From positions 744,001 to 808,000 of the forward strand of contig NZ_BBXF01000005.1 in assembly GCF_001570585.1 (NCBI RefSeq): DNA of 64,000 nt. Reading direction: 5' to 3'. Within the stretch, counting starts at the first letter, position 1; each line of letters starts with the position of its first letter. The stretch comes from Herbidospora daliensis. GTDB lineage: Bacteria > Actinomycetota > Actinomycetes > Streptosporangiales > Streptosporangiaceae. The notes under the pieces are model-generated. The model did no database searches and was not told where the DNA came from. It saw only the letters and a list, made by a program, of their open reading frames with translations. Shown here one piece after another: positions 2,871 to 50,587 of this stretch. Made by a program: the position numbers and the translations under genes.

Positions 2871-3231
2871 CCTGCAGCGCGGCGAAGGCCGCGACCACCA
2901 CGGCCTGGGCGACGGCCCACAGGGCGCCGACGGTGGTGAACGACCACGCGACCACGGCGGCGACGCTGCCCAGCGACCAGAGGAGGTTGAGGGTGATCAC
3001 GGCCAGGGTCGCGGGCCGGCTGATCGGGCGGCGCGTGGACAGCAGGCCGACCGCGAGGGCGTACACGACCAGGAAGGCGCCGATCCCCCGGAGCAGGCCG
3101 GCCTCCGGGCCGAGCAGGGAGCCCAGCGGGGCGGCGAACAGCAGGTAGGCCAGGCCGTTGCCGCCGGTGACGACGGCGTCGCCGAGGAGTGCCAGGCGCA
3201 GGAAGTCGGGGCGGTGGGTGACGGCGGTCAT
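2848..3231 (-). CDS. Small four-helix membrane protein, unknown function
   Basis: A 127-residue integral membrane protein with about four hydrophobic helices (residues ~12-35, 45-63, 75-95, 103-122) and short basic loops such as STRRPISRP. A good ribosome-binding site, GGAGGAG, precedes the ATG. It resembles the small hydrophobic proteins often found beside NmrA or HxlR genes in actinomycetes, but I recognise no functional motif. It converges on, and slightly overlaps, the NmrA-like gene. Confidence 0.75.
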   Translation of the reverse strand: MTAVTHRPDFLRLALLGDAVVTGGNGLAYLLFAAPLGSLLGPEAGLLRGIGAFLVVYALAVGLLSTRRPISRPATLAVITLNLLWSLGSVAAVVAWSFTTVGALWAVAQAVVVAAFAALQVIGLRRS

Positions 3232-3320
3232 CTCGGGCTCCTCCGGCGGAAAGGGGACGTGCTGACACTCCGAAAGATGTCAGCCGCCGCGCGGAGCCGC
3301 GATTACGCGTCAGGTAACGC

Positions 3321-4001
3321 TCAGCCCGTCTTCCCCTTCGCCGGTTCGGTGAGGGTGAAGACGCGCAGGAACGTGTCGAGGGACTCGGGGCGGCCCCAGT
3401 AGACGACCTCGCCGGCCCTGGCCGCCCTCATCAGCGCCCGGTAGGAGGGCAGGCCGTCGGGGCCGAAGGTGATCACGAGGTCGGGCTCGCGGGGGGCCGG
3501 GCCGACGCCGGAGACGAGTTCCCCGTCGTCGACCACGAGGTGCAGGACCACGTCGTGGACGTGGACCTCCCAGACGGCGTGGACGCCGCGCGCGGCCCGC
3601 GCGTCGAAGGCCGCGCGGAAGCTGATGGTCATCAGCTCGGGCCGGATGATCTCACCTGGTTCCGGGTCGCCCATCTGGCTGGCGCCCCAGCGCCCGAGGG
3701 CCAGCAGGGCGGGCTGGAGCTCGATTCCAGCGGCGGTCAGCGCGTAGAGCACGCCGCGCTTGGGCGCGGGGGCGAGGCGGCGCTCGACGATGCCCGCCTG
3801 CTCCAGCTCCTTCAGCCGGGTGGCCAGCACGTTGGTGGGGATGCCCGGCAGGCTCTCGACCAGGTCGGTGTAGCGCAGGGGGCGGACGAGCAGGTCGCGG
3901 ACGATCAGCAGCGCCCATCGTTCGCCCACGATCTCGAGGGCGCGGGCCAGGCCGCAGTACTGCCCGTAGTCACGGCGCGTCATGCAGAAATCATAGCTCA
4001 C
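3321..4001 (-). CDS. HxlR-family transcriptional regulator with C-terminal sterol-carrier-like domain
   Basis: Residues ~8-105 form the HxlR winged helix: DYGQYCGLARALEIVGERWA, then DLVESLPGIPTNVLATRLKELEQAGIVERR. The family cysteine (YCG) that often senses thiol or quinone stress is present. Residues ~115-226 form an SCP2-like ligand domain. The frame opens at a GTG at 4001; an ATG at 3983 (MTRRDYGQYC) is equally plausible and fits the family start better. The gene is divergent from an MFS transporter, and both starts lie in a 26-bp tandem repeat, so the regulator probably controls both genes. Confidence 0.88.
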   Translation of the reverse strand: MSYDFCMTRRDYGQYCGLARALEIVGERWALLIVRDLLVRPLRYTDLVESLPGIPTNVLATRLKELEQAGIVERRLAPAPKRGVLYALTAAGIELQPALLALGRWGASQMGDPEPGEIIRPELMTISFRAAFDARAARGVHAVWEVHVHDVVLHLVVDDGELVSGVGPAPREPDLVITFGPDGLPSYRALMRAARAGEVVYWGRPESLDTFLRVFTLTEPAKGKTG

Positions 4002-4032
4002 TTTCTCATGCAGAAATCATAGCTCACTTTCT
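3981..4032. repeat. Perfect 26-bp tandem duplication over the hxlR start
   Basis: Two identical head-to-tail 26-bp units (3981-4006 and 4007-4032), each CATGCAGAAATCATAGCTCA followed by CTTTCT. The unit contains the HxlR ATG on the minus strand in its first copy; the second copy lies just upstream. Because 26 is not a multiple of three, the second copy does not extend the protein. A duplicated operator or a recent slippage event are both possible. Confidence 0.9.
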
Positions 4033-4038
4033 CGAAAG

Positions 4039-4076
4039 AAGTTAACTTGCAAAAATGAAGTGCCGCTGGCTACTGT
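4039..4076 (+). promoter_or_regulatory. Promoter and palindrome for the MFS gene
   Basis: TTGCAA (4047-4052), 18-bp spacer, TACTGT (4071-4076), with the ATG 7 bp further at 4083. The -35 is overlapped by the perfect 10-bp palindrome AAGTTAACTT (4039-4048), a plausible repressor site for the divergent HxlR protein. Confidence 0.55.
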
Positions 4077-4082
4077 CACGGC

Positions 4083-5330
4083 ATGACTTCCATCAGGCTG
4101 CCGCTCGCCGTCGGCTTCGCCGGGATCTCGGCCGCGATGGTGGCGATCCTCGTCGCGGCCGGGGTGCCGACACCGCTGCTCCCGGTCTACGAAGCCTCCT
4201 GGCACCTCGCGCCGTGGGAGCTGACGCTCGCGTTCGGCGTCTACTCCCTCGCGCTCCTGCTCACGATCCTGGTGATCGGCTCGTTGTCCGACCACGTCGG
4301 CCGCCGGCCGCTCATGATCGCGGCGCTTGCGGTGGAGCTGGTGGCGATGCTGGCGTTCCTGTCGGCGTCCTCGATCAGAGGGCTCGTCGCGGCCCGGATC
4401 GTGCAGGGCATCGCCACGGGCGCGGCGTCGAGTTCGTTGTCGGCCGCCGTGGTGGAGCTCGCGCCCGCCCGGCACAAGAAGCTCGGCGCGCTGGTGACCA
4501 CGGTCGCGCCGCTGGCGGGCCTGGCGCTGGGGGCGATCTTCGCGGGCCTGCTGGCCCAGTTCGCGACCGAGCCCGTGTTCGCGGTCTGGCTCGTGCTCGT
4601 CGTGGTCATGGCGGCCGGCACGATCTTCACGTTGTTCACGCCCGAGACGTCCACCCCCAAGCCGGGCGCGTGGCGGTCGCTGCGGCCGCGCGTCTCGGTG
4701 CCGCCGCAGGTGCGGCGGCTGTTCGCCACGACCCTGCCCGGCACGATCAGCGCGTTCATGACGATGGCGCTGTTCCTCGGGCTGGTCCCGATCGTGCTCG
4801 GCGGCGAGTTCGGGGTGCACCGCCCGATCGCCGGGGCCCTGGCCGCCTTCGTCGCCTTCACCGCCGGCGGCGTCGCCTCGGTGGTCACCACCCGGGTGGC
4901 GCCTCGAACACTGCGCCTGTACGGAGCGGCTCTCGTCGCCCTCGGCGCAGTGCTGTTCGTGGCGACCGTGACCTCCGGAGCCCTGCCCCTGCTGTGGGTC
5001 GCGGCCGTCTTCGGCGGGGCCGGGGTCGGCACGTCGTTCTCCGGCATGACCCGGGGCCTGGTGCCCGAGGTGCGGCCGCACGAGCGCGCCGAGTTGTTCG
5101 CCGCCATCTACCTGGTCGGCTACCTCGCGCTGGGGGTGCCCGCCATCGTCGCCGGTCAGCTGGTCGCGGTCGTCGGCGTGACGTCGATGGCGACCGGCTA
5201 CGGCACGATCGTCGCGATCGTCGCCGTGGCGGGCACCCTCGTCACGGCCGCGCGACCCCGTCGTACTCGACCCACAGGTGGCGCGGTCCGCGCAGAACCG
5301 GACTTGGCCTATAGGGCGGCGGGTCGCTGA
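4083..5330 (+). CDS. MFS drug/metabolite exporter
   Basis: A 415-residue major-facilitator protein with 12 predicted helices. Motif A, GSLSDHVGRRPL, lies between helices 2 and 3 (residues ~61-72). The overall architecture (LPVYEASWHLAPWELTLAFG in the first loop) resembles drug:H+ antiporters. Divergent from an HxlR repressor, a common arrangement for inducible exporters. The cytoplasmic tail of about 25 residues overlaps the 3' end of the convergent P450 gene by 89 bp, a large overlap for two genes that both look intact. Substrate unknown. Confidence 0.87.
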   Translation: MTSIRLPLAVGFAGISAAMVAILVAAGVPTPLLPVYEASWHLAPWELTLAFGVYSLALLLTILVIGSLSDHVGRRPLMIAALAVELVAMLAFLSASSIRGLVAARIVQGIATGAASSSLSAAVVELAPARHKKLGALVTTVAPLAGLALGAIFAGLLAQFATEPVFAVWLVLVVVMAAGTIFTLFTPETSTPKPGAWRSLRPRVSVPPQVRRLFATTLPGTISAFMTMALFLGLVPIVLGGEFGVHRPIAGALAAFVAFTAGGVASVVTTRVAPRTLRLYGAALVALGAVLFVATVTSGALPLLWVAAVFGGAGVGTSFSGMTRGLVPEVRPHERAELFAAIYLVGYLALGVPAIVAGQLVAVVGVTSMATGYGTIVAIVAVAGTLVTAARPRRTRPTGGAVRAEPDLAYRAAGR

Positions 5331-43166: not shown

Positions 43167-44021
43167 ATGAACGCCGAATTCACCCACCACCGCATCCCCG
43201 TCACCGACGACGTCGCCCTCCACGCCGCCGTCGCCGGCAGCGGACCCGCCGTCGTCCTCCTCCACGGCTTCCCGCAGACCCACCTCATGTGGCGTCACGT
43301 CGCCGCCGACCTCGCCACCACCCACACCGTCATCTGCCCCGACCTGCGCGGCTACGGCGACAGCGACAAACCCGCCACCGGATACTCCAAACGCCGCATG
43401 GCCGCCGACGTCATCACCCTCGCGCACGCCCTCGGCCACCAGCGCTTCGCCCTCGCCGGCCACGACCGCGGCGCCCTGGTCGCCTTCCGGGCCGCCCTCG
43501 ACCACCCCGAGACCATCACCCACCTGGCCTGTCTCGACGTCCTGCCCACCCTCGACATGTGGGACGTCCTCCACGGCGCCCCCGCCGCCGTCGCCTGGCA
43601 CCTCTACCTCATGGCCCAGCCCCCCGGCCTGCCGGAAGCCCTCATCGCCGCCGACCCCGACGCCTTCTTCGGCCACTTCCTCGACGCCTGGACCCGCGAC
43701 CCCGCCGCGCTCAGCGATGTCCGCGACACCTACCTCACCGCGTCGCGCAACGCCATCGCCTCGATCGTCGCCGACTACCGCGCCTCCGCCGGCGTCGACC
43801 TCGACCACGACGCCGAAGACCGCGCCAACGGCACCCGCCTCACCATGCCCGTCACCGTCGTCCAGCAGGACTGGGGCGCCGCCCTCGGCTACGACGCCGC
43901 CGCCCTCTGGCGCGCCTGGGCCCCCGACCTCCACCACAACACCACCACCGCCGGCCACTACATGGCCGAAGAGGCCCCCGCCGAGACCACCCGCCACATC
44001 CGCCGGCTCCTGGCCCGCTGA
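43167..44021 (+). CDS. Alpha/beta hydrolase related to haloacetate dehalogenase / epoxide hydrolase
   Basis: 284 residues. HGFPQTHLMWR oxyanion region, GYGDSDKP, nucleophile elbow GHDRGA with Asp100, and catalytic His in AGHYMAEEAP. The whole-length wording (VLDVLPT, YLMAQPPGLPE, DYRASAG) is close to fluoroacetate dehalogenases. Key residues of those enzymes differ, though: the second carboxylate-binding Arg is Leu104, and the halide-site Trp following His145 is Leu146. A neutral ester or epoxide substrate is therefore more likely. Divergent from the SARP regulator. Confidence 0.85.
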   Translation: MNAEFTHHRIPVTDDVALHAAVAGSGPAVVLLHGFPQTHLMWRHVAADLATTHTVICPDLRGYGDSDKPATGYSKRRMAADVITLAHALGHQRFALAGHDRGALVAFRAALDHPETITHLACLDVLPTLDMWDVLHGAPAAVAWHLYLMAQPPGLPEALIAADPDAFFGHFLDAWTRDPAALSDVRDTYLTASRNAIASIVADYRASAGVDLDHDAEDRANGTRLTMPVTVVQQDWGAALGYDAAALWRAWAPDLHHNTTTAGHYMAEEAPAETTRHIRRLLAR

Positions 44022-44115
44022 CCAGGCCAAATTCCGGCAAACCCTGGCACGTCGTCAAGCCCCCGCAGCACCCCGCCATGAACATCATGGAGCCCTTCCA
44101 CAGAAGGGACATCCC

Positions 44116-44604
44116 ATGCGCCACCTGCTCTCCATCGCCGCCCTGGCCCTCACCCTCACCCCCCTCCCACCCGCCGCCGCCGACACCGGCGAGATCACCT
44201 GCCACGGCGGCAGCATCAGCCACCACTACACCCCCGGCGTCACCTACCGGAGGAACACCACCTGGATGACCGCCAACGGCGACCTCGGCGTCTGCGCCTC
44301 CCAGACCCACCCCGGCATCACCGGCGGCACCATCCGCATCGAGGGCAACCTCACCAGCCAGTGCCCCGGCCCCATCGGCCCCGGCTACACCCGCCTCACC
44401 ATCAGCTGGAACGACGGCACCACGACCACCGTCAACCAGGCCACCCACAAAGGCGACCTCACCAGCTACACCGTCGACAGCGGCGCCGCCCACCTCAGCG
44501 GACGCACCACCACCAGCCTCCTCGACCTCGGCGCCAACTGCGTCCTCAACGGCGTCACCCAGACCACCGCCACCATCGACCAGTTCACCAGCAGCCACGA
44601 ATAG
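44116..44604 (+). CDS. Secreted protein, unknown function
   Basis: 162 residues with ribosome-binding site AGAAGGGAC and a signal peptide MRHLLSIAALALTLTPLPPA ending AAAD. The mature protein is Thr- and Gly-rich with four cysteines (ITCHGGS, GVCASQ, SQCPGP, ANCVLNG), likely two disulfides in an extracellular beta-sandwich. I recognise no family. Its stop lies 4 bp from the convergent prenyltransferase stop. Confidence 0.75.
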   Translation: MRHLLSIAALALTLTPLPPAAADTGEITCHGGSISHHYTPGVTYRRNTTWMTANGDLGVCASQTHPGITGGTIRIEGNLTSQCPGPIGPGYTRLTISWNDGTTTTVNQATHKGDLTSYTVDSGAAHLSGRTTTSLLDLGANCVLNGVTQTTATIDQFTSSHE

Positions 44605-44608
44605 CCGC

Positions 44609-45394
44609 TCACCGGCCGAAACGCCGGCCCCGGCCCGCATACGAACGAAGCGCCCGGAGAAAATCGATCTCCCGGAAATCCGGCCAGTAACACTCGCAGA
44701 AGTGCATCTCCGCGTAGGCCGACTGCCACAACATGAAACCCGACAGGCGCTGCTCGCCGCTGGTCCGCACGATCATGTCGAGCGGCGCCTGCGCCGCCGT
44801 GTACACATGCCGCCCGATCGCCTCCGCGTCGAACCCGTCGAGAATGTCCTCCAACGCCACACCCGCCGCCAGCCGCTCACCGATCGCCGACCGCACCGCG
44901 TCCGCGATCTCCCGCTGGCCCCCGTAACCCACGGCCACGTTCACCTTCACCCCGCCCCGCCGGCCTGCCGTCCGCGCGGCCGCCCCCTTGATCGCCCGCG
45001 CCGTCGCGTCAGGCAGCAGATCGAGGCTCCCGATCGGCGTCACCTCCCACCGCCGGCCCGGCGCCGCCAGTTCGTCCACGACCCCCTCGATGATCTCCAG
45101 CAGAGCCGCCAGCTCCGCCTCGCCCCGGCCCAGGTTGTCGTCGGACAGCAGATAGATCGTCACCTGTTCGATCCCGTAGGCGTCACACCAGCTCAGGAAC
45201 GTCGGAATCTTGGCCCCACCGGCCCGGTGACCGTCGGCCGGATCCCGGAACCCCGCCGACCGCGCCCACCGCCGATTCCCGTCGACCATGATCCCGATAT
45301 GCCGCGGCATCAGCTCCCGGGGAAGCCGGCCCGCCAGGCGCCGCACGTAGATCCGGTCGAGGACACCCCGCACCCGCTGTCGCATCCACACCAT
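44609..45394 (-). CDS. Cis-prenyltransferase (UppS-like)
   Basis: 261 residues. HIGIMVDGNRRWAR (Asp38) binds diphosphate/Mg; RTSGEQRLSGFMLWQSAYAE and the C-terminal YWPDF are conserved motifs 4-5. It adds isoprene units to allylic diphosphate with Z geometry. The sequence ADGHRAGGAKIPTFLSWCDA and lack of family-typical Ser in the motif after RLS suggest a short-chain or secondary copy rather than the essential undecaprenyl synthase. The start could also be the Met at position 4. Confidence 0.88.
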   Translation of the reverse strand: MVWMRQRVRGVLDRIYVRRLAGRLPRELMPRHIGIMVDGNRRWARSAGFRDPADGHRAGGAKIPTFLSWCDAYGIEQVTIYLLSDDNLGRGEAELAALLEIIEGVVDELAAPGRRWEVTPIGSLDLLPDATARAIKGAAARTAGRRGGVKVNVAVGYGGQREIADAVRSAIGERLAAGVALEDILDGFDAEAIGRHVYTAAQAPLDMIVRTSGEQRLSGFMLWQSAYAEMHFCECYWPDFREIDFLRALRSYAGRGRRFGR

Positions 45395-45526
45395 GACGCC
45401 ATCGTCGACCGGCCCTCAGCGCCCGGACAACCGCCTGCACCGAACCCTCACCCGACCTTCACGAACACGGGCACGGCGTCCCTGGCTGAAGGTCGTGATC
45501 TGTTCGTGGACGACATTCGCCACCGC

Positions 45527-45548
45527 CCGACGCCTTTACAAAGTAGAT
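45527..45548 (+). repeat. Left copy of a 22-bp direct repeat
   Basis: Begins CCGACGCCTTTACAAAGTAG and ends AT. It is identical to 49214-49235, 3,687 bp away. The two copies bracket the hemerythrin-fusion gene and the trpBA-gntR operon. Similarity continues weakly for ~20 bp beyond the repeat on the right (TAACGGCGTT versus TTACGGGGTGTT). Confidence 0.85.
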
Positions 45549-45559
45549 TCCTAACGGCG

Positions 45560-45588
45560 TTGACGGGACGACTTCCGGGCGGTCTAAT
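45560..45588 (+). promoter_or_regulatory. Promoter for the deazaflavin-hemerythrin gene
   Basis: TTGACG (45560-45565), 17-bp spacer, TCTAAT (45583-45588); a near-consensus housekeeping sigma promoter 11 bp downstream of the 22-bp repeat. Transcription would start near 45595, leaving a ~145-nt leader. Confidence 0.65.
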
Positions 45589-45740
45589 GACCCTCGATGT
45601 CGCGTGACTCCGGCCAAAGAGCAGTGGGCCGGCCGGTGATCGGGCGAGCATCCCGACCGCGAGGGGTCTCTCCAATGAGTGCACACTCCCCCTCCCTCTG
45701 ATCCGCCACGCTTTCCCCTGATTTCCGGAGACACATCCGC

Positions 45741-46490
45741 ATGCCCACGTCATCAGACTTTCTACTGCTCACCACCACCGGCGCGACATCCGGCGAGCAG
45801 ACCACCACTCCCCTGCCCTACGTCCACCACGACGACCTGCTACTGGTCGTCGGCTCCGACCCGGCCTGGTACGACGACCTGCTCGCCCATCCGTCGGTAC
45901 AAGTCGAACTCGCCGGCGAGACCTTCGAAGCCCTGGCGGTCCCCGCCGAAGGAGCCCGTCGCGACGAGCTGCTCAAGCAGGTCGCGCACTCCGGCTACGT
46001 CGTGATCCTCGATCGGGTCGATCTCGGGGAGCCGCGTGAGGTCGCCAATCTCGCGGACAAGCTCGTCGAGATCCACACCTGGCTCCGCGAGCAGTTGCGG
46101 CACGTCCGAGCAGAGGTCGACGCGCACTTCGCCGCGCAGCCGGGCGAACCGCCGAGCCTGGGTCTGCAGATCCGGCAGCGTTGTCTGGCGTTCTGTCAGG
46201 CGCTGGAGTTCCATCACACCAGCGAGGACGGGCACCTGTTCCCCGGCATGGCTCCGCACCACCCGCACCTGAAAGCCACCTTCGAGCGGCTCGCCGACGA
46301 GCACCGGGCCGTGGCGCGCATTCAGGGTGAGCTCGCCTCTCTGCTCGCCGACATCGGGGCCGCCGATCCGCGGCGGTTCCGGGCCGAGCTCGACCGGATG
46401 GCGGCCGAACTCAACGCGCATCTCGACCACGAGGAGGCCGCGCTCTTGCCCCTGCTGGCCGAGATCCCGTGGCCTCCGCCGCGTCCGTGA
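45741..46490 (+). CDS. Fusion of deazaflavin (F420)-dependent reductase-like domain and hemerythrin
   Basis: 249 residues. Residues ~5-85 match the DDN/F420H2-dependent reductase fold (LLLTTTGATSGEQTTTPLPY, LAHPSVQVELAGETFEALAV), shortened at the N-terminus. Residues ~100-245 are a hemerythrin-like helical bundle with candidate iron ligands in EIHTWLREQL, EFHHTSEDGHLFP, ADEHRAVARI and NAHLDHEEAALLPLL. A di-iron oxygen or nitric-oxide sensor joined to a deazaflavin domain is plausible. Located inside the 22-bp-repeat segment, upstream of trpBA. Cofactors are inferred. Confidence 0.83.
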   Translation: MPTSSDFLLLTTTGATSGEQTTTPLPYVHHDDLLLVVGSDPAWYDDLLAHPSVQVELAGETFEALAVPAEGARRDELLKQVAHSGYVVILDRVDLGEPREVANLADKLVEIHTWLREQLRHVRAEVDAHFAAQPGEPPSLGLQIRQRCLAFCQALEFHHTSEDGHLFPGMAPHHPHLKATFERLADEHRAVARIQGELASLLADIGAADPRRFRAELDRMAAELNAHLDHEEAALLPLLAEIPWPPPRP

Positions 46491-46502
46491 CCCGTTGGGG
46501 TA

Positions 46503-46533
46503 CTGTTCTAGAACAGATGCTGTTCTAGAACAG
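46503..46533. promoter_or_regulatory. Twin 14-bp palindromic operators before trpB
   Basis: CTGTTCTAGAACAG occurs twice, at 46503-46516 and 46520-46533, with centres 17 bp apart, ending 17 bp before the trpB ATG and just upstream of its GGAGGA ribosome-binding site. Each copy is a perfect palindrome. GntR regulators of the HutC group bind short palindromes of this size, and a HutC-type GntR gene is the third gene of the operon, so autoregulated repression is likely. Confidence 0.8.
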
Positions 46534-46550
46534 TTCGGAGGACGACGTCC

Positions 46551-47720
46551 ATGACCACCCTGATGAACGACCCGGGGACCACCGGCCGGTTCGGCGACTA
46601 CGGCGGGCGATACGTGCCGGAGTCGCTGATCCCGGCCTGCCAGGAGATCGAGGCCGCGTTCCGGGACGCCTGGGCCGATCCCGGGTTCCGCGACCGGCTG
46701 ACCACGCTGCTCACCGTGTACGCCGGCCGCCCCACCCCGCTGACCCCCGCGCGGCGGCTCTCCGAGGAGCTCGGGATCACGCTGCTGCTCAAGCGGGAGG
46801 ACCTCACCCACACCGGCTCCCACAAGATCAACAACGTGGTCGGCCAGGCGCTGCTCGCCCAGCGCATGGGCAAGCGGCGGCTGCTGGCCGAGACCGGCGC
46901 GGGGCAGCACGGCGTCGCCACCGCCACCGCCGCCGCGCTCCTCGGGCTCCGCGCGACGGTGTTCATGGGCGAGCGCGACATCGAACGCCAGGAGCTCAAC
47001 GTGCTGCGCATGCACGTCCTCGGCGCGGAGGTGGTGCCCGTCACCAGCGGCAGCCGGACTCTCAAGGACGCCTGCAACGAGGCGATGCGCCACTGGGTGG
47101 CGTCCACCGACGACTCCTACTACTGCCTCGGCTCGGTGCTGGGCCCGCACCCCTACCCGTGGATGGTGCGCGAGTTCCAGCGCGTCATCGGCGAGGAGGC
47201 CCGCGCCCAGTGCGCCGCCGAGCTGCCCGCCGCGGTGCCCGACTACGTGGTCGCGTGCGTCGGCGGCGGCTCGAACGCCGCCGGCACGTTCGCCGGGTTC
47301 ATCGGCACCACCGCCCGGCTCGTCGGGGTCGAGGCCGAGGGCGGCGCGGCGGCCACCTCCGGCCGGGCCGGGGTCCTGCACGGCTTCCGCTCGCTCGTGC
47401 TCCAGGACGAGCACGGCCAGGTCAGGGAGGCCCACTCGGTCGCGGCCGGGCTCGACTACCCGGGCATCGGGCCCGAGCACGCCCACCTGCGCGACGGCGG
47501 CCGGGCCCGCTACGCGACCGTCACCGACGACGAGGTGGTCCGGGCGCTCGTGCGGCTGGCCCGCACCGAGGGCATCGTGGCCGCGCTGGAGTCGTCCCAC
47601 GCCCTGGCCTGGGTGATCAGGGCCGCGGAGTCCGGCGGGATCGCGCCGGGGTCGACCGTGATGCTGACGCTTTCCGGCCGGGGAGACAAGGACATCGCGT
47701 CCATCAAGGAGCTGCTGTGA
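46551..47720 (+). CDS. trpB: Tryptophan synthase beta chain
   Basis: 389 residues, TrpB1 type. PLP lysine Lys92 (HTGSHKINN), catalytic Glu in AETGAGQHG, phosphate loop GGGSNAAG, and the C-terminal LSGRGDKD. It condenses indole and serine, with indole supplied by the alpha subunit. The gene follows two GntR-type palindromes and is coupled to trpA by GTGA. No trpC, trpD, trpE or trpF is nearby, so this is a stand-alone trpBA unit. Full length with no missing residues seen. Confidence 0.95.
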   Translation: MTTLMNDPGTTGRFGDYGGRYVPESLIPACQEIEAAFRDAWADPGFRDRLTTLLTVYAGRPTPLTPARRLSEELGITLLLKREDLTHTGSHKINNVVGQALLAQRMGKRRLLAETGAGQHGVATATAAALLGLRATVFMGERDIERQELNVLRMHVLGAEVVPVTSGSRTLKDACNEAMRHWVASTDDSYYCLGSVLGPHPYPWMVREFQRVIGEEARAQCAAELPAAVPDYVVACVGGGSNAAGTFAGFIGTTARLVGVEAEGGAAATSGRAGVLHGFRSLVLQDEHGQVREAHSVAAGLDYPGIGPEHAHLRDGGRARYATVTDDEVVRALVRLARTEGIVAALESSHALAWVIRAAESGGIAPGSTVMLTLSGRGDKDIASIKELL

Positions 47721-48496
47721 CCACGCTCGAAGAGTCCCTGCTCGCCCGCCGCGCCACCGGGCGCCTCCTGGTGCCCTACGTCACCGCCGGGGCCGCCCCC
47801 GGGTGGACCGACGTCGTGCGCGCCTACGCCGACGCCGGGGCCGACGCCGTCGAGATCGGCTTCCCGTTCTCCGACCCGATGCTCGACGGGGTCACCATCC
47901 AGGAGGCCTCCGATCGCGCGATCGCCCGCGGGACCACGGTCACCGCCATCCTGGACGAGGTCACGGCGCTCGACGTGGGGGTGCCGCTGGTCGCGATGAC
48001 GTACGGGAACCTGGTCTTCCAGCGGAGCGGCGCGGAGTTCTGCGCGGCGCTGGCCGCGAGCGGGCTGCGCGGGCTCATCGTGCCCGACGTGCCGCTGGAG
48101 GAGTGCGGCGAGCTGGCCGGCGCCGCCGCGAAGGAGGGCCTCGACCTGGTGCTGCTGGCCGCGCCGTCGACCCCGCGCCCCCGGCTGCGCGACATCGCCG
48201 AGCGCAGCCGCGGCTTCGTCTACGCGCTGACCCGCATGGGCACCACCGGCGAACGCGACGAGGTGCCGGAGCAGGCCGCCCGGCTCGGCCGCGACCTCAA
48301 GGAGCTCACCGACCGGCCGGTCCTGTTCGGCTTCGGGGTCTCCAGCCCGCGCCCGGCCGCCGACCTCGCCCGGCACGCCGACGGCGTCGTGGTCGCCTCG
48401 GCGCTGATGCGCCGCCTCCTCGACGGCGCCCGGCCGCGCGAACTGGGAGAGTATGCAGCGAGCATCCGCCGCGCACTCGACCAGGGAGCCCGATGA
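47717..48496 (+). CDS. trpA: Tryptophan synthase alpha chain
   Basis: 259 residues from a GTG overlapping the trpB stop. Catalytic Glu47 and Asp57 lie in EIGFPFSDPMLDGVTIQ (canonical EIGIPFSDPLADGPxIQ), with variant residues around the second acid. FVYALTRMGTTGER is the phosphate-binding loop 6 region and VLFGFGVSSP the final strand. It releases indole from indole-3-glycerol phosphate. Somewhat divergent wording suggests a specialised or secondary copy. Coupled to gntR by ATGA. Confidence 0.94.
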   Translation: MTTLEESLLARRATGRLLVPYVTAGAAPGWTDVVRAYADAGADAVEIGFPFSDPMLDGVTIQEASDRAIARGTTVTAILDEVTALDVGVPLVAMTYGNLVFQRSGAEFCAALAASGLRGLIVPDVPLEECGELAGAAAKEGLDLVLLAAPSTPRPRLRDIAERSRGFVYALTRMGTTGERDEVPEQAARLGRDLKELTDRPVLFGFGVSSPRPAADLARHADGVVVASALMRRLLDGARPRELGEYAASIRRALDQGAR

Positions 48497-49233
48497 GCAG
48501 TACGCCCCGCTACCGCGCCATCGCCGACGACCTGAGCGACAAGATCAGGTCGGGCCGCTACCGCGCGGGCGAGGCACTGCCCGCGCAGCGTGAGCTCAGC
48601 GCCTCCTACGGCGTGACGATGATGACGCTGCGGCAGGCGTTGCAGGTCCTCAGCGCCGAGGGCCTGATCGACCAGCGGGCGGGCCGCGGCACCTACGTGG
48701 CGCGGCCCGGCGCCGAATATCCGCTCGACACCCTGCGCAGCCTCGGCGACGACCTGCGCAGGCAGGGCCACCCCCTGCGCACCGAAGTGGTCTCGGCCGC
48801 GCTGCGCCCCGCCCCGCGCTCCCTCACGCCGTTGCTCGGCGACGTGCGGGCCCTGCGGCTCACGCGGGTACGCCACCTGCGCGACCGGCCCGTCGTCCAC
48901 CAGGTCTCCTGGGTCGCCGAGCCGCACGCCTCGGCCGTCAGGGGCGCCGACTTCACCGAGGTCCCGCTCTACACCGCCCTCACCGAGGCCGGCGCGCGCA
49001 TCCACCGGGCCGCCGAGCGCATCAGGCCCGCCCTGCTCACCGCCCCCGTGGCGGCCCGGCTGAACCGTCCCCCGGGCGGCCCGGTGTTCGTCAGCGAGCG
49101 TGTCACCTACGACGACCGGGGCACGCCGATCGTCGTCGACCACGCCACGATCCTCGGCGAGTGGATGGAGATCCGGGCCGAGCGCAAGGCGACCGACCTG
49201 TCGCTGCACTGGACCGACGCCTTTACAAAGTAG
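48493..49233 (+). CDS. GntR-family (HutC subfamily) regulator of trpBA
   Basis: 246 residues. N-terminal winged helix: YRAIADDLSDKIRSGRYRAG, ELSASYGVTMMTLRQALQVL, RGTYVARPG. C-terminal UTRA effector domain (~85-240): LTRVRHLRDRPVVHQVSWVA, GPVFVSERVTYDDRGTPIVV. Third gene of the operon, coupled to trpA; twin palindromes stand upstream of trpB. Its last codons (DAFTK-stop) lie inside the right 22-bp repeat. Presumably senses tryptophan, indole or a related metabolite; effector unknown. Confidence 0.92.
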   Translation: MSSTPRYRAIADDLSDKIRSGRYRAGEALPAQRELSASYGVTMMTLRQALQVLSAEGLIDQRAGRGTYVARPGAEYPLDTLRSLGDDLRRQGHPLRTEVVSAALRPAPRSLTPLLGDVRALRLTRVRHLRDRPVVHQVSWVAEPHASAVRGADFTEVPLYTALTEAGARIHRAAERIRPALLTAPVAARLNRPPGGPVFVSERVTYDDRGTPIVVDHATILGEWMEIRAERKATDLSLHWTDAFTK

Positions 49234-49235
49234 AT
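49214..49235 (+). repeat. Right copy of the 22-bp direct repeat
   Basis: Identical to 45527-45548. It covers the last codons and TAG stop of the GntR gene and lies ~30 bp before the SAM-IV riboswitch, so it is both the end of the 3.7-kb segment and part of the next leader's upstream region. Confidence 0.85.
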
Positions 49236-49264
49236 CTGTTACGGGGTGTTATAGTCCTCGCGAA

Positions 49265-49378
49265 GGTCATGAGTGCCAGCGCACAGCCCCGGCTTGCTGG
49301 CCGGCAACCCTCGCGTCCGCGGCGGGGTGCCCCGGGTGAAGACCTGGTCCGTCGCGGGGTGCGGCGGGCAAGCGCGTG
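49265..49378 (+). promoter_or_regulatory. SAM-IV riboswitch
   Basis: GGTCATGAGTGCCAGCG, AGCCCCGGCTTGCTGGCCGG, CAACCCTC, GCGGCGGGGTGCCCCGGGTG, then GACC closing P1 (49341-49344), and a 3' extension with GGCGGGCAAGCGCG. These are the conserved blocks of the actinobacterial SAM-IV class. A -10-like TATAGT is at 49250-49255. It leads directly into the cysteine-desulfurase-like gene, whose GGAGG lies 10 nt downstream. Confidence 0.9.
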
Positions 49379-49396
49379 GCTTCTCCTGGAGGCGTT

Positions 49397-50587
49397 GTGT
49401 CCCCCGTGTTGTCCCTTGACGTGCCCGTCCGCGACGGCGCCCTCGTCCCCTACGCCAATCTCGACTACGCCGCCAGCGCCCCCTGTCTCGAGGCGGTCAG
49501 CCGCGCCGTCGCCGAGGCGCTGCCCGCCTACTCCAGCGTGCACCGGGGCGCCGGCTACGCCTCGCAGCTCACCACCACCCGCTACGAGCAGGCCCGGCAC
49601 ACCGTCAAGGCGTTCGCCCGCGCCCGGACCGACGACGCGCTCGTGTTCACCCGCAACACCACCGACGCGATGAACCTGCTGGCCCGCAGCCTGCCCGAGG
49701 GCACGACGGTGGTCGTCTTCGACACCGAGCACCACGCGACCCTGCTCCCCTGGCCCGCGCCGGTGCGCCTCGCGCCGCCCGCGCTGCCCGGCGAGGCGGT
49801 CCGCGCCGCCGACGAGGCGCTCGCCGCGATCGAGGGCCCGGCGCTGCTGGTCGTCACGGCCGCCTCCAACGTGACCGGCGAACTGTGGCCGATCGCCGGC
49901 CTGGCCCACATCGCCCACCGGCACGGCGCGCGCATCGCGGTCGACGCCGCCCAGCTGGCGCCCCACCGGCCGCTGAACGTCGCCGCCCTCGACCTCGACT
50001 ACGTCGCCTTCTCGGGCCACAAGCTGTACGCCCCCTTCGGCGCGGGCGTGCTGATCGGCCGGCGTGACTGGCTGGAGCGGGCCGAGCCCTACCTGAAGGG
50101 CGGCGGCGCGACCGTGGCCGTCGGCGAGCAGACCGAATGGCAGTCCGACGTGGAGGCCCGGCACGAGGCCGGCACCCCCAACGTGCTGGGCGCCATCGCG
50201 CTGGCCGCGGCCTGCGACCACCTGAGCCGGAGCGGCTGGACCGGCCTGATCGAGGAGGAGGACCGCCTGCTCACCCGGTTGCGCACGGGGCTCGCCGCGA
50301 TCGAGGGCGTGCACGAGCTGGCGCTCTGGCCCGCCGACCATCCGCGGGTGGGCATCGTGTCCTTCGTCGTGGACGGTTACACGGCGCGTGAGGTGGCCGA
50401 GCGGTTGTCGGCCGACCACGGGATCGGGGTGCGCGACGGCAAGTTCTGCGCGCACCCGTTCGTGCGGCACCTGCTGGGGGCGAACTCCGGCAGTGCGGTC
50501 CGCGCCTCGATCGGGCTCGGCAGCACCGAGGAACACGTCGACCGCCTGCTGACGGCCCTGCGCAGGCTCACCGAGGTTCGGGGCTGA
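49397..50587 (+). CDS. Cysteine desulfurase-like class V aminotransferase (SufS type)
   Basis: 396 residues from the GTG at 49397 behind GGAGG. PLP lysine is Lys209 (SGHKLYAPFGAGVLIG); RHEAGTPNVLG and the C-terminal GVRDGKFCAHP correspond to the RFEAGTPN and R-x-GHHCAQP motifs of SufS, including the persulfide-forming cysteine. A SAM-IV riboswitch controls it, which points to methionine or sulfur economy rather than ordinary Fe-S assembly. No suf or isc partner is adjacent. Convergent with the TetR gene (20-bp overlap). Confidence 0.87.
   Translation: MSPVLSLDVPVRDGALVPYANLDYAASAPCLEAVSRAVAEALPAYSSVHRGAGYASQLTTTRYEQARHTVKAFARARTDDALVFTRNTTDAMNLLARSLPEGTTVVVFDTEHHATLLPWPAPVRLAPPALPGEAVRAADEALAAIEGPALLVVTAASNVTGELWPIAGLAHIAHRHGARIAVDAAQLAPHRPLNVAALDLDYVAFSGHKLYAPFGAGVLIGRRDWLERAEPYLKGGGATVAVGEQTEWQSDVEARHEAGTPNVLGAIALAAACDHLSRSGWTGLIEEEDRLLTRLRTGLAAIEGVHELALWPADHPRVGIVSFVVDGYTAREVAERLSADHGIGVRDGKFCAHPFVRHLLGANSGSAVRASIGLGSTEEHVDRLLTALRRLTEVRG

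Follow-up and report, generated by a model that had tools for sequence, protein, structure and literature searches.

An RNA element whose fold is supported by covariation precedes the gene for an F420-reductase-like/hemerythrin fusion protein in Herbidospora daliensis and in relatives from six actinobacterial families. The H. daliensis copy lies in a stretch of 64,000 nucleotides (the window; contig NZ_BBXF01000005.1, positions 744,001 to 808,000). Our preferred reading, to which we give a probability of a little over two in three, is that the fusion family is expressed under a structured 5′ leader working in cis through a small ORF, and that the F420 half of the protein has decayed in the Herbidospora lineage. 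The leader RNA is the finding of main interest; the fusion gene itself is real and of a common architecture. Actinobacteria commonly have F420 enzymes, few of which, to our knowledge, have a known role or regulator. The features concerned are as follows.

45560 to 45588, + strand: promoter-like pair from a pattern search, −35 TTGACG (45560-45565), 17-nt spacer, −10 TCTAAT (45583-45588)
45594 to 45679, + strand (G000:C5:789594-789679): conserved leader element, found with covariance models at 75.8-76 bits
45597 to 45651, + strand: two-helix RNA core of ~55 nt (P1 and P2), from alignments and folding
45661 to 45666, + strand: Shine-Dalgarno-like GAGGGG of the small upstream ORF, from the sequence
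45675 to 45701, + strand: small upstream ORF MSAHSPSL, eight codons and TGA, from sequence and comparison
45741 to 46490, + strand: F420-reductase-like/hemerythrin fusion gene, ORF call with ATG start, 249 aa
45756 to 45986, + strand: reduced FDOR-A (Ddn-type) domain without F420-binding elements, from Pfam, alignments and an AlphaFold2 model
46053 to 46457, + strand: hemerythrin HHE domain, from Pfam, structure matches and ligand alignment

The RNA core is predicted to form two helices, P1 (45597-45603 with 45644-45651, one A bulged) and P2 (45606-45615 with 45631-45641), the loop of the latter containing AAAGAGCAGTGGG. Covariation in an alignment that was not fitted to the fold supports this structure. 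On this fold-independent MAFFT alignment (A1), RNAalifold returned 13 pairs, five of them with changes on both sides. A 17-pair structure was paired in 89.4% of the cells of A1, with seven pairs changed on both sides compared to 3.7 in shuffled alignments (0 of 500 shuffles as high) and a covariation score of 0.245 compared to 0.157 (0 of 500 as high; 0.017-0.088 in slid controls). Further pair types were no more numerous than in the shuffles (17 vs. 17.5; 401 of 500 as high). Alignments A2 and A3, unlike A1, were fitted to the model; with 78 sequences (76 distinct) fitted in this way, 10 pairs changed on both sides, with 92 cells compared to 23.5; pair 9-90 is standard in just 28 of 76 sequences. 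Folding of single sequences yielded z values of −2.79 (window), −3.19, −0.55 and −0.66, two of the four being no better than shuffles. Across loci the P2 loop varies from a few to ~30 nt and the element from 69 to 103 nt. Because these element lengths differ out of frame, one long ORF reading through the RNA was rejected.

No Rfam 15 match overlapped the leader RNA, either at E ≤ 5 in positions 44000-50000 of the window or at E ≤ 10 in 18 loci that included the window locus. In Rfam 15 and in the literature searched, which comprised titles and the beginnings of abstracts, the RNA appears undescribed, and no paper on an F420 riboswitch was found among the matches listed. Like the riboswitches and other leader RNAs collected in Rfam 15, for example SAM-IV, the element is compact, covaries, sits at the 5′ end and is linked to one gene family; unlike them, it has no family match and is followed by a conserved small ORF.

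The linkage between RNA and fusion is close. Of 299 named loci the best 80 were compared, and 79 of these have the RNA 5′ of the fusion and on its strand, or 64 of 65 when the 15 loci that had fed the model are set aside; the exception, L140, retains the 3′ half of the RNA alone. The leader block is common to the congeners, where it lies between the upstream gene and the fusion, and it stands before all of the 30 best fusions (L016-L045). Genome scans gave 105 distinct RNA sites, 103 of them with a fusion or part of a fusion downstream; many of the named loci belong to the same species as scanned sites, and strand was read for scan sites outside L257-L306, the downstream stretch alone being compared for those 50 loci. 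Specifically, model R1 with strict filters made 31 matches, spread over 30 of the 394 class genomes and 29 of them with a fusion match downstream, and model R2 found the RNA in a second family, Streptomycetaceae, where 83 of 394 genomes carry it. All 74 new scan sites had a fusion match downstream. In a phylum sample, R2 matched 4 of 396 genomes, all at sites already found. Named hosts come from Streptomycetaceae, Streptosporangiaceae, Pseudonocardiaceae (Saccharopolyspora spinosa), Micromonosporaceae (Longispora albida), Nocardiopsidaceae (Actinorugispora) and Thermomonosporaceae (Actinomadura xylanilytica).

Some targets are partial: L091 has the FDOR domain only, in L103 and L277 the match is confined to the hemerythrin part, and that of L278 is gapped. 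The RNA is thus kept before genes that have the FDOR or the hemerythrin domain alone, which means that its link is not to one domain in particular. Nothing was recognised downstream of the site in G192, and in G003 (L308) an Abhydrolase_3 gene (162.6 bits, 3212-4096) lies directly behind the RNA copy, making this α/β hydrolase a possible second target.

A promoter pattern of TTGACA/G, a spacer of 16-18 nt and mostly TGTAAT or TCTAAT was present in 73 of the 79 named loci, where it ends 3-6 nt before the element; each of four windows shifted upstream gave 0 of 79. Judged by this pattern, the RNA core would lie at the presumed transcript start. Behind it, the small ORF was present in 75 of 79 named loci and had nine codons in 51 of the 75, while the same ORF rule applied to six shifted controls gave 9-32 of 79, with nine codons in 0-2. 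The ORF is missing in four of the 79, and also in congener L017 and in Herbidospora solisilvae. There are 46 distinct nine-codon peptides, commonly M-S-S-(Y/H)-S-A-P. Mean entropies at codon positions 1, 2 and 3 were 1.1, 0.64 and 0.85; position 1 is thus more variable than position 3, and selection on the peptide itself is therefore not supported. From the small ORF to the gene, the leader is rich in C (0.452) relative to G (0.276), with C exceeding G in 76 of 76 leaders, and an excess of 0.1 or more is seen in 67 of the 76 leaders compared to 29 of 76 coding controls and 10 of 79 upstream controls. A general anti-Shine-Dalgarno hairpin looked convincing by eye, but z exceeded 2 in only 12 of 74 cases (mean 0.20), and this candidate was rejected.

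More divergent fusions appear to have additional controls. Among 20 fusions at 41-48% identity, the leader RNA was detected at E < 0.01 in 9 (filters off), always on the gene's strand, and was not found at that threshold in the other 11. Five (L213, L215, L221, L225 and L227) have a divergent MarR-like gene, an assignment Pfam-tested on the L213 protein alone, together with a TTTGCTnnnAAAGCAAA site, and three (L219, L222 and L228) have a second conserved leader. The remaining three showed neither the RNA, the MarR-like gene with TTTGCTnnnAAAGCAAA, nor the second leader, the upstream sequence of one ending at a contig edge. The second leader consists of GTGACTGCCGGGTCGGCCATGGGCCA ... CCCGGC ..., followed by a GC-rich hairpin, and was seen in L219, L222, L228 and L234-L256 (except L240, L241 and L254), with a mean column identity of 79% over 20 sequences; in L219, L222 and L228 it has no Rfam match. 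A search of 200 family genomes gave 72 occurrences of its motif, in 67 genomes (~10 occurrences in a reversed control); 45 of them are located 186-739 nt 5′ of a listed fusion, on the fusion's strand. Among the matches listed, this leader precedes 45 of 105 divergent fusions. In L235, L236, L243 and L250 it stands before small genes that look S1-domain-like by eye.

We propose that transcription would start just ahead of the RNA, as the promoter suggests; that the two-helix RNA would govern in cis the translation of the tiny ORF behind it; and that this translation event would decide whether the downstream fusion gene is made. The leader, being long, rich in C and poor in G, would fit Rho-dependent attenuation coupled to the small ORF. 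Actinobacterial leader-peptide and small-ORF attenuators combine a short ORF that has its own Shine-Dalgarno with a long C-rich leader; here, by contrast, the conserved structure precedes the small ORF, behind which a general anti-Shine-Dalgarno is absent. Tentatively, and at well below even odds, the RNA may represent a riboswitch-like actinobacterial class that acts via the nine-codon ORF in response to a signal of redox or cofactor type, be it iron, NO, a quinone-type compound, F420 or a related flavin, and is near-exclusive to F420-reductase-hemerythrin fusions, the second leader doing the same in the divergent branch.

The conserved stem could instead be a protein-binding site, recognised by the fusion protein itself or by an RNA-binding regulator, and not a metabolite sensor. 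A simple two-helix architecture speaks for such a site, and the near-exclusive tie to one gene (103 of 105 sites) suits autogenous control. We nevertheless regard it as somewhat unlikely, since the RNA is kept with half proteins (FDOR only in L091, hemerythrin only in L103) and precedes an unrelated hydrolase in G003, and the conserved neighbours include no candidate binder. The element might also be read as DNA, namely as an imperfectly palindromic operator over the transcription start, with the small ORF incidental: the presumed start site coincides with the beginning of the element, palindromes in DNA covary too, and some divergent fusions (the five of 20 that have a MarR-like gene divergent to them) seem to be controlled by a transcription factor. 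The variable lengths of the P2 loop and of the element, the 24 U-G combinations that pair 8-91 shows beside CG, UA, GC and AU, and the nine-codon ORF in 51 of 79 loci compared to 0-2 in shifted controls make an operator highly improbable. We retain a leader RNA acting in cis through the small ORF as the preferred reading.

The gene downstream encodes what the earlier note had proposed, a deazaflavin-reductase-like domain fused to a hemerythrin. The protein exceeds the cut-offs of PF04075 (F420H2_quin_red; 59.3 vs. 22 bits, aa 6-82), TIGR00026 of NCBIfam (61.3 vs. 46.35 bits) and PF01814 (Hemerythrin; 65.4 vs. 25.3 bits, aa 105-239), and its AlphaFold2 model (mean pLDDT 88.1, pTM 0.78) comprises a split barrel and a four-helix bundle. 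In Foldseek searches, the best solved matches of the barrel were Ddn and other FDOR-A proteins. The window model matched Ddn (3r5r) with a TM (target) of 0.72, an rmsd of 2.3 and 24% identity, and the H. solisilvae model did so with 0.91, 1.4 and 40%; the full-length H. solisilvae model matched 8d4w with a TM (target) of 0.89, an rmsd of 1.3 and 47% identity. Because profile, fold and relatives, the check named beforehand, all support homology to DDN, the idea that the first domain is unrelated to DDN falls. Its description as shortened was also correct: the PF04075 match spans only positions 24-106 of the 130 in the profile, a derived state, the relatives being longer. Thus, the window protein has the split-barrel fold and family motifs in common with Ddn/FDOR-A reductases (PF04075, TIGR00026; Ddn, MSMEG_2850, MSMEG_2027); unlike them, it is fused to a hemerythrin bundle and is without the N-terminal helix, part of the post-β3 loop, the tail Lys and helix D.

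The second half appears to be the di-iron bundle that had been claimed for it: PF01814 is above its cut-off, and all six ligands presumed from the alignment (His112, His158, Glu162, His188, His227 and Glu231) are kept. The pattern H-HxxxE-H-HxxxE is complete in 26 of 26 aligned members. VIA-align matched the bundle to 2p0n_A (Z 10.9, 142 residues, span 99-246) and to 3waq, the hemerythrin domain of DcrH (Z 9.9); both values are unremarkable among helical bundles by the program's own note. HHE/RIC (YtfE) di-iron proteins (PF01814, TIGR03652) share the four-helix bundle with this ligand pattern; unlike RIC, the window protein falls far below the cut-off of the RIC/YtfE equivalog TIGR03652 in NCBIfam (29.8 vs. 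204.7 bits) and carries an FDOR domain.

The F420H2-reductase/hemerythrin fusion is a common architecture in actinobacteria, usually of ~300 aa. Matches to the window protein occur in 195 of 200 genomes of the host family, some of them not fusions, and the best 30 loci (L016-L045) are all fusions, mostly of ~300 aa by script-picked starts. The H. daliensis genome itself has 13 hemerythrin places and 7 PF04075 places. Of seven matches in plasmid records, five are annotated "nitroreductase/quinone reductase family protein" and two carry no annotation. We found no description of the architecture or of the RNA in the titles and abstract beginnings searched or in the available parts of PMC3267046, PMC4919030, PMC6429828 and PMC5069765; the figures of PMC4919030 could include it.

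The available part of PMC3267046 gives R54, K55, T56, R60, N91, K79, M87, W88, P63, A76 and Y133 as Ddn–F420 contacts. Among 25 aligned relatives, Lys or Arg occupies Ddn position 55 in 23, and all 25 have Trp at position 88, Asn at 91 and a Y133-type Tyr, with N or A in place of K79. In the window protein, the equivalent of K55 is Thr16 and that of N91 is Asp46, six residues are deleted from the post-β3 loop (the Ddn 76-85 loop), and deletions of 2 and 12 residues in the helix D region have removed the Y133 equivalent. The N-terminal helix and tail Lys are also missing; Trp43 and Ser39 are retained. Aligned with the contacts in that part of PMC3267046, the F420-contacting elements of Ddn (K55, the K79 loop, N91 and Y133) are thus absent or changed. 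The N-terminal and D helices are present in the H. solisilvae model and absent from the window model. Because elements of the Ddn F420 site have been lost, these two helices included, F420 coupling is unlikely in the window protein. Its reductase half looks cofactor-dead, F420 chemistry has probably been lost here, and the suggestion in the earlier note that oxygen or NO sensing might be coupled to deazaflavin redox chemistry is unlikely to apply to this protein. Sensing of O2 or NO as such may or may not occur, the di-iron ligand set being intact. F420 coupling in full-length relatives is plausible.

The losses are partly shared within the genus. Congener L021 (G083) has the N-terminal loss, the Thr and the Asp in common with the window protein; it differs in its loop, a 16-residue insertion and a His for the Tyr. 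Congener L017 has lost part of the N-terminus. By the Nei-Gojobori method on eight sequences, dN(FDOR)/dN(HHE) was 1.20-3.53 in the 13 pairs with L016 (the window locus) or L021 and 0.54-1.26 in the remaining 15 pairs. In pairs with the window, FDOR omega was 0.34-0.58; the reduced domain is therefore still constrained, and some function may persist.

These data bear on whether the window protein may still bind F420, or FMN, coupled to its di-iron site. The PF04075 and TIGR00026 cut-offs are passed, the barrel is predicted to be well folded, Trp43 and Ser39 are present, and the genome holds 7 PF04075 and 2 CofD-family places. Against these stand the K55-to-Thr and N91-to-Asp changes, the six-residue loop deletion and the deleted Y133 and N-terminal helices, as well as the fact that L021 reached the same losses partly through other changes, and we judge retained binding improbable. 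The faster change in the first domain might also suggest a decaying pseudogene or an assembly error; with the deletions in frame, the hemerythrin ligands whole, the leader RNA and promoter retained and part of the losses common to a second species, the chance of this is very slim. According to the reading we prefer, the enzyme half of most relatives probably uses F420H2 beside the di-iron bundle, and its possible tasks include reducing a quinone, enone or nitro compound or handling O2 or NO. In the Herbidospora lineage the F420 half would be reduced to a folded scaffold, and because of this decay the window product, while remaining under the RNA, would function chiefly as a hemerythrin-like di-iron protein.

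Conserved neighbours of the fusion were not found: in 833 ORFs from 80 named loci, retained after length and GC-pattern filters, the fusion cluster occurs in 77 of 80 and the next commonest in 9 of 80. The earlier statement that the gene travels with trpBA inside a repeat-bounded segment stands in part. A trpB-trpA-GntR block follows the fusion in the window and in three of five congener regions (G033, G163 and G083). The fusion adjoins an aminotransferase in G149, with no such block between, and lies in another context without it in G109; a trpB or trpA match was found in 0 of 15 other-genus regions, with flanks of ~5.5-10 kb per side. Among the regions compared, trpBA accompanies the fusion in some Herbidospora only. 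The 0 of 15 count, and the window trpA being one of two in the genome, led us to reject trpBA as a functional partner. The window trpBA spans 46551-48496, and the second trpA lies at G000:C3:64634-65392. Just 5′ of trpB, two CTGTTCTAGAACAG palindromes 3 nt apart (46503-46533) are kept in the window and three Herbidospora relatives; they are perhaps a candidate operator of the GntR-type gene behind trpA.

The repeat is likewise real, with 22 nt identical at 45527-45548 and 49214-49235. Its 16-nt core CGCCTTTACAAAGTAG (45531-45546 and 49218-49233) is dispersed over 10 genome places at up to one mismatch (control 0), and the left copy, at up to three mismatches, is found in one of four congeners sharing the locus (G033 only), being absent in G163 and G149 and degenerate in G083. 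G149 has the core once, 5′ of the aminotransferase. With the core dispersed genome-wide and the single G149 copy so placed, a mobile segment bounded by the repeats was rejected. By eye, CGCCTTTACAAAGTAG sites lie near promoters and terminators and also inside coding sequence. A SAM-IV riboswitch (49265-49380, 97.9 bits) lies 3.6 kb downstream of the leader RNA, and the gene after it was named by eye as class V aminotransferase/cysteine desulfurase-like.

With a single fusion gene linked to this RNA across six actinobacterial families, there is a direct handle on the role of the enzyme: the signal of the RNA should point to the enzyme's function. The Herbidospora pair amounts to a natural experiment, since its F420 half is fading and the RNA and the di-iron half are kept.
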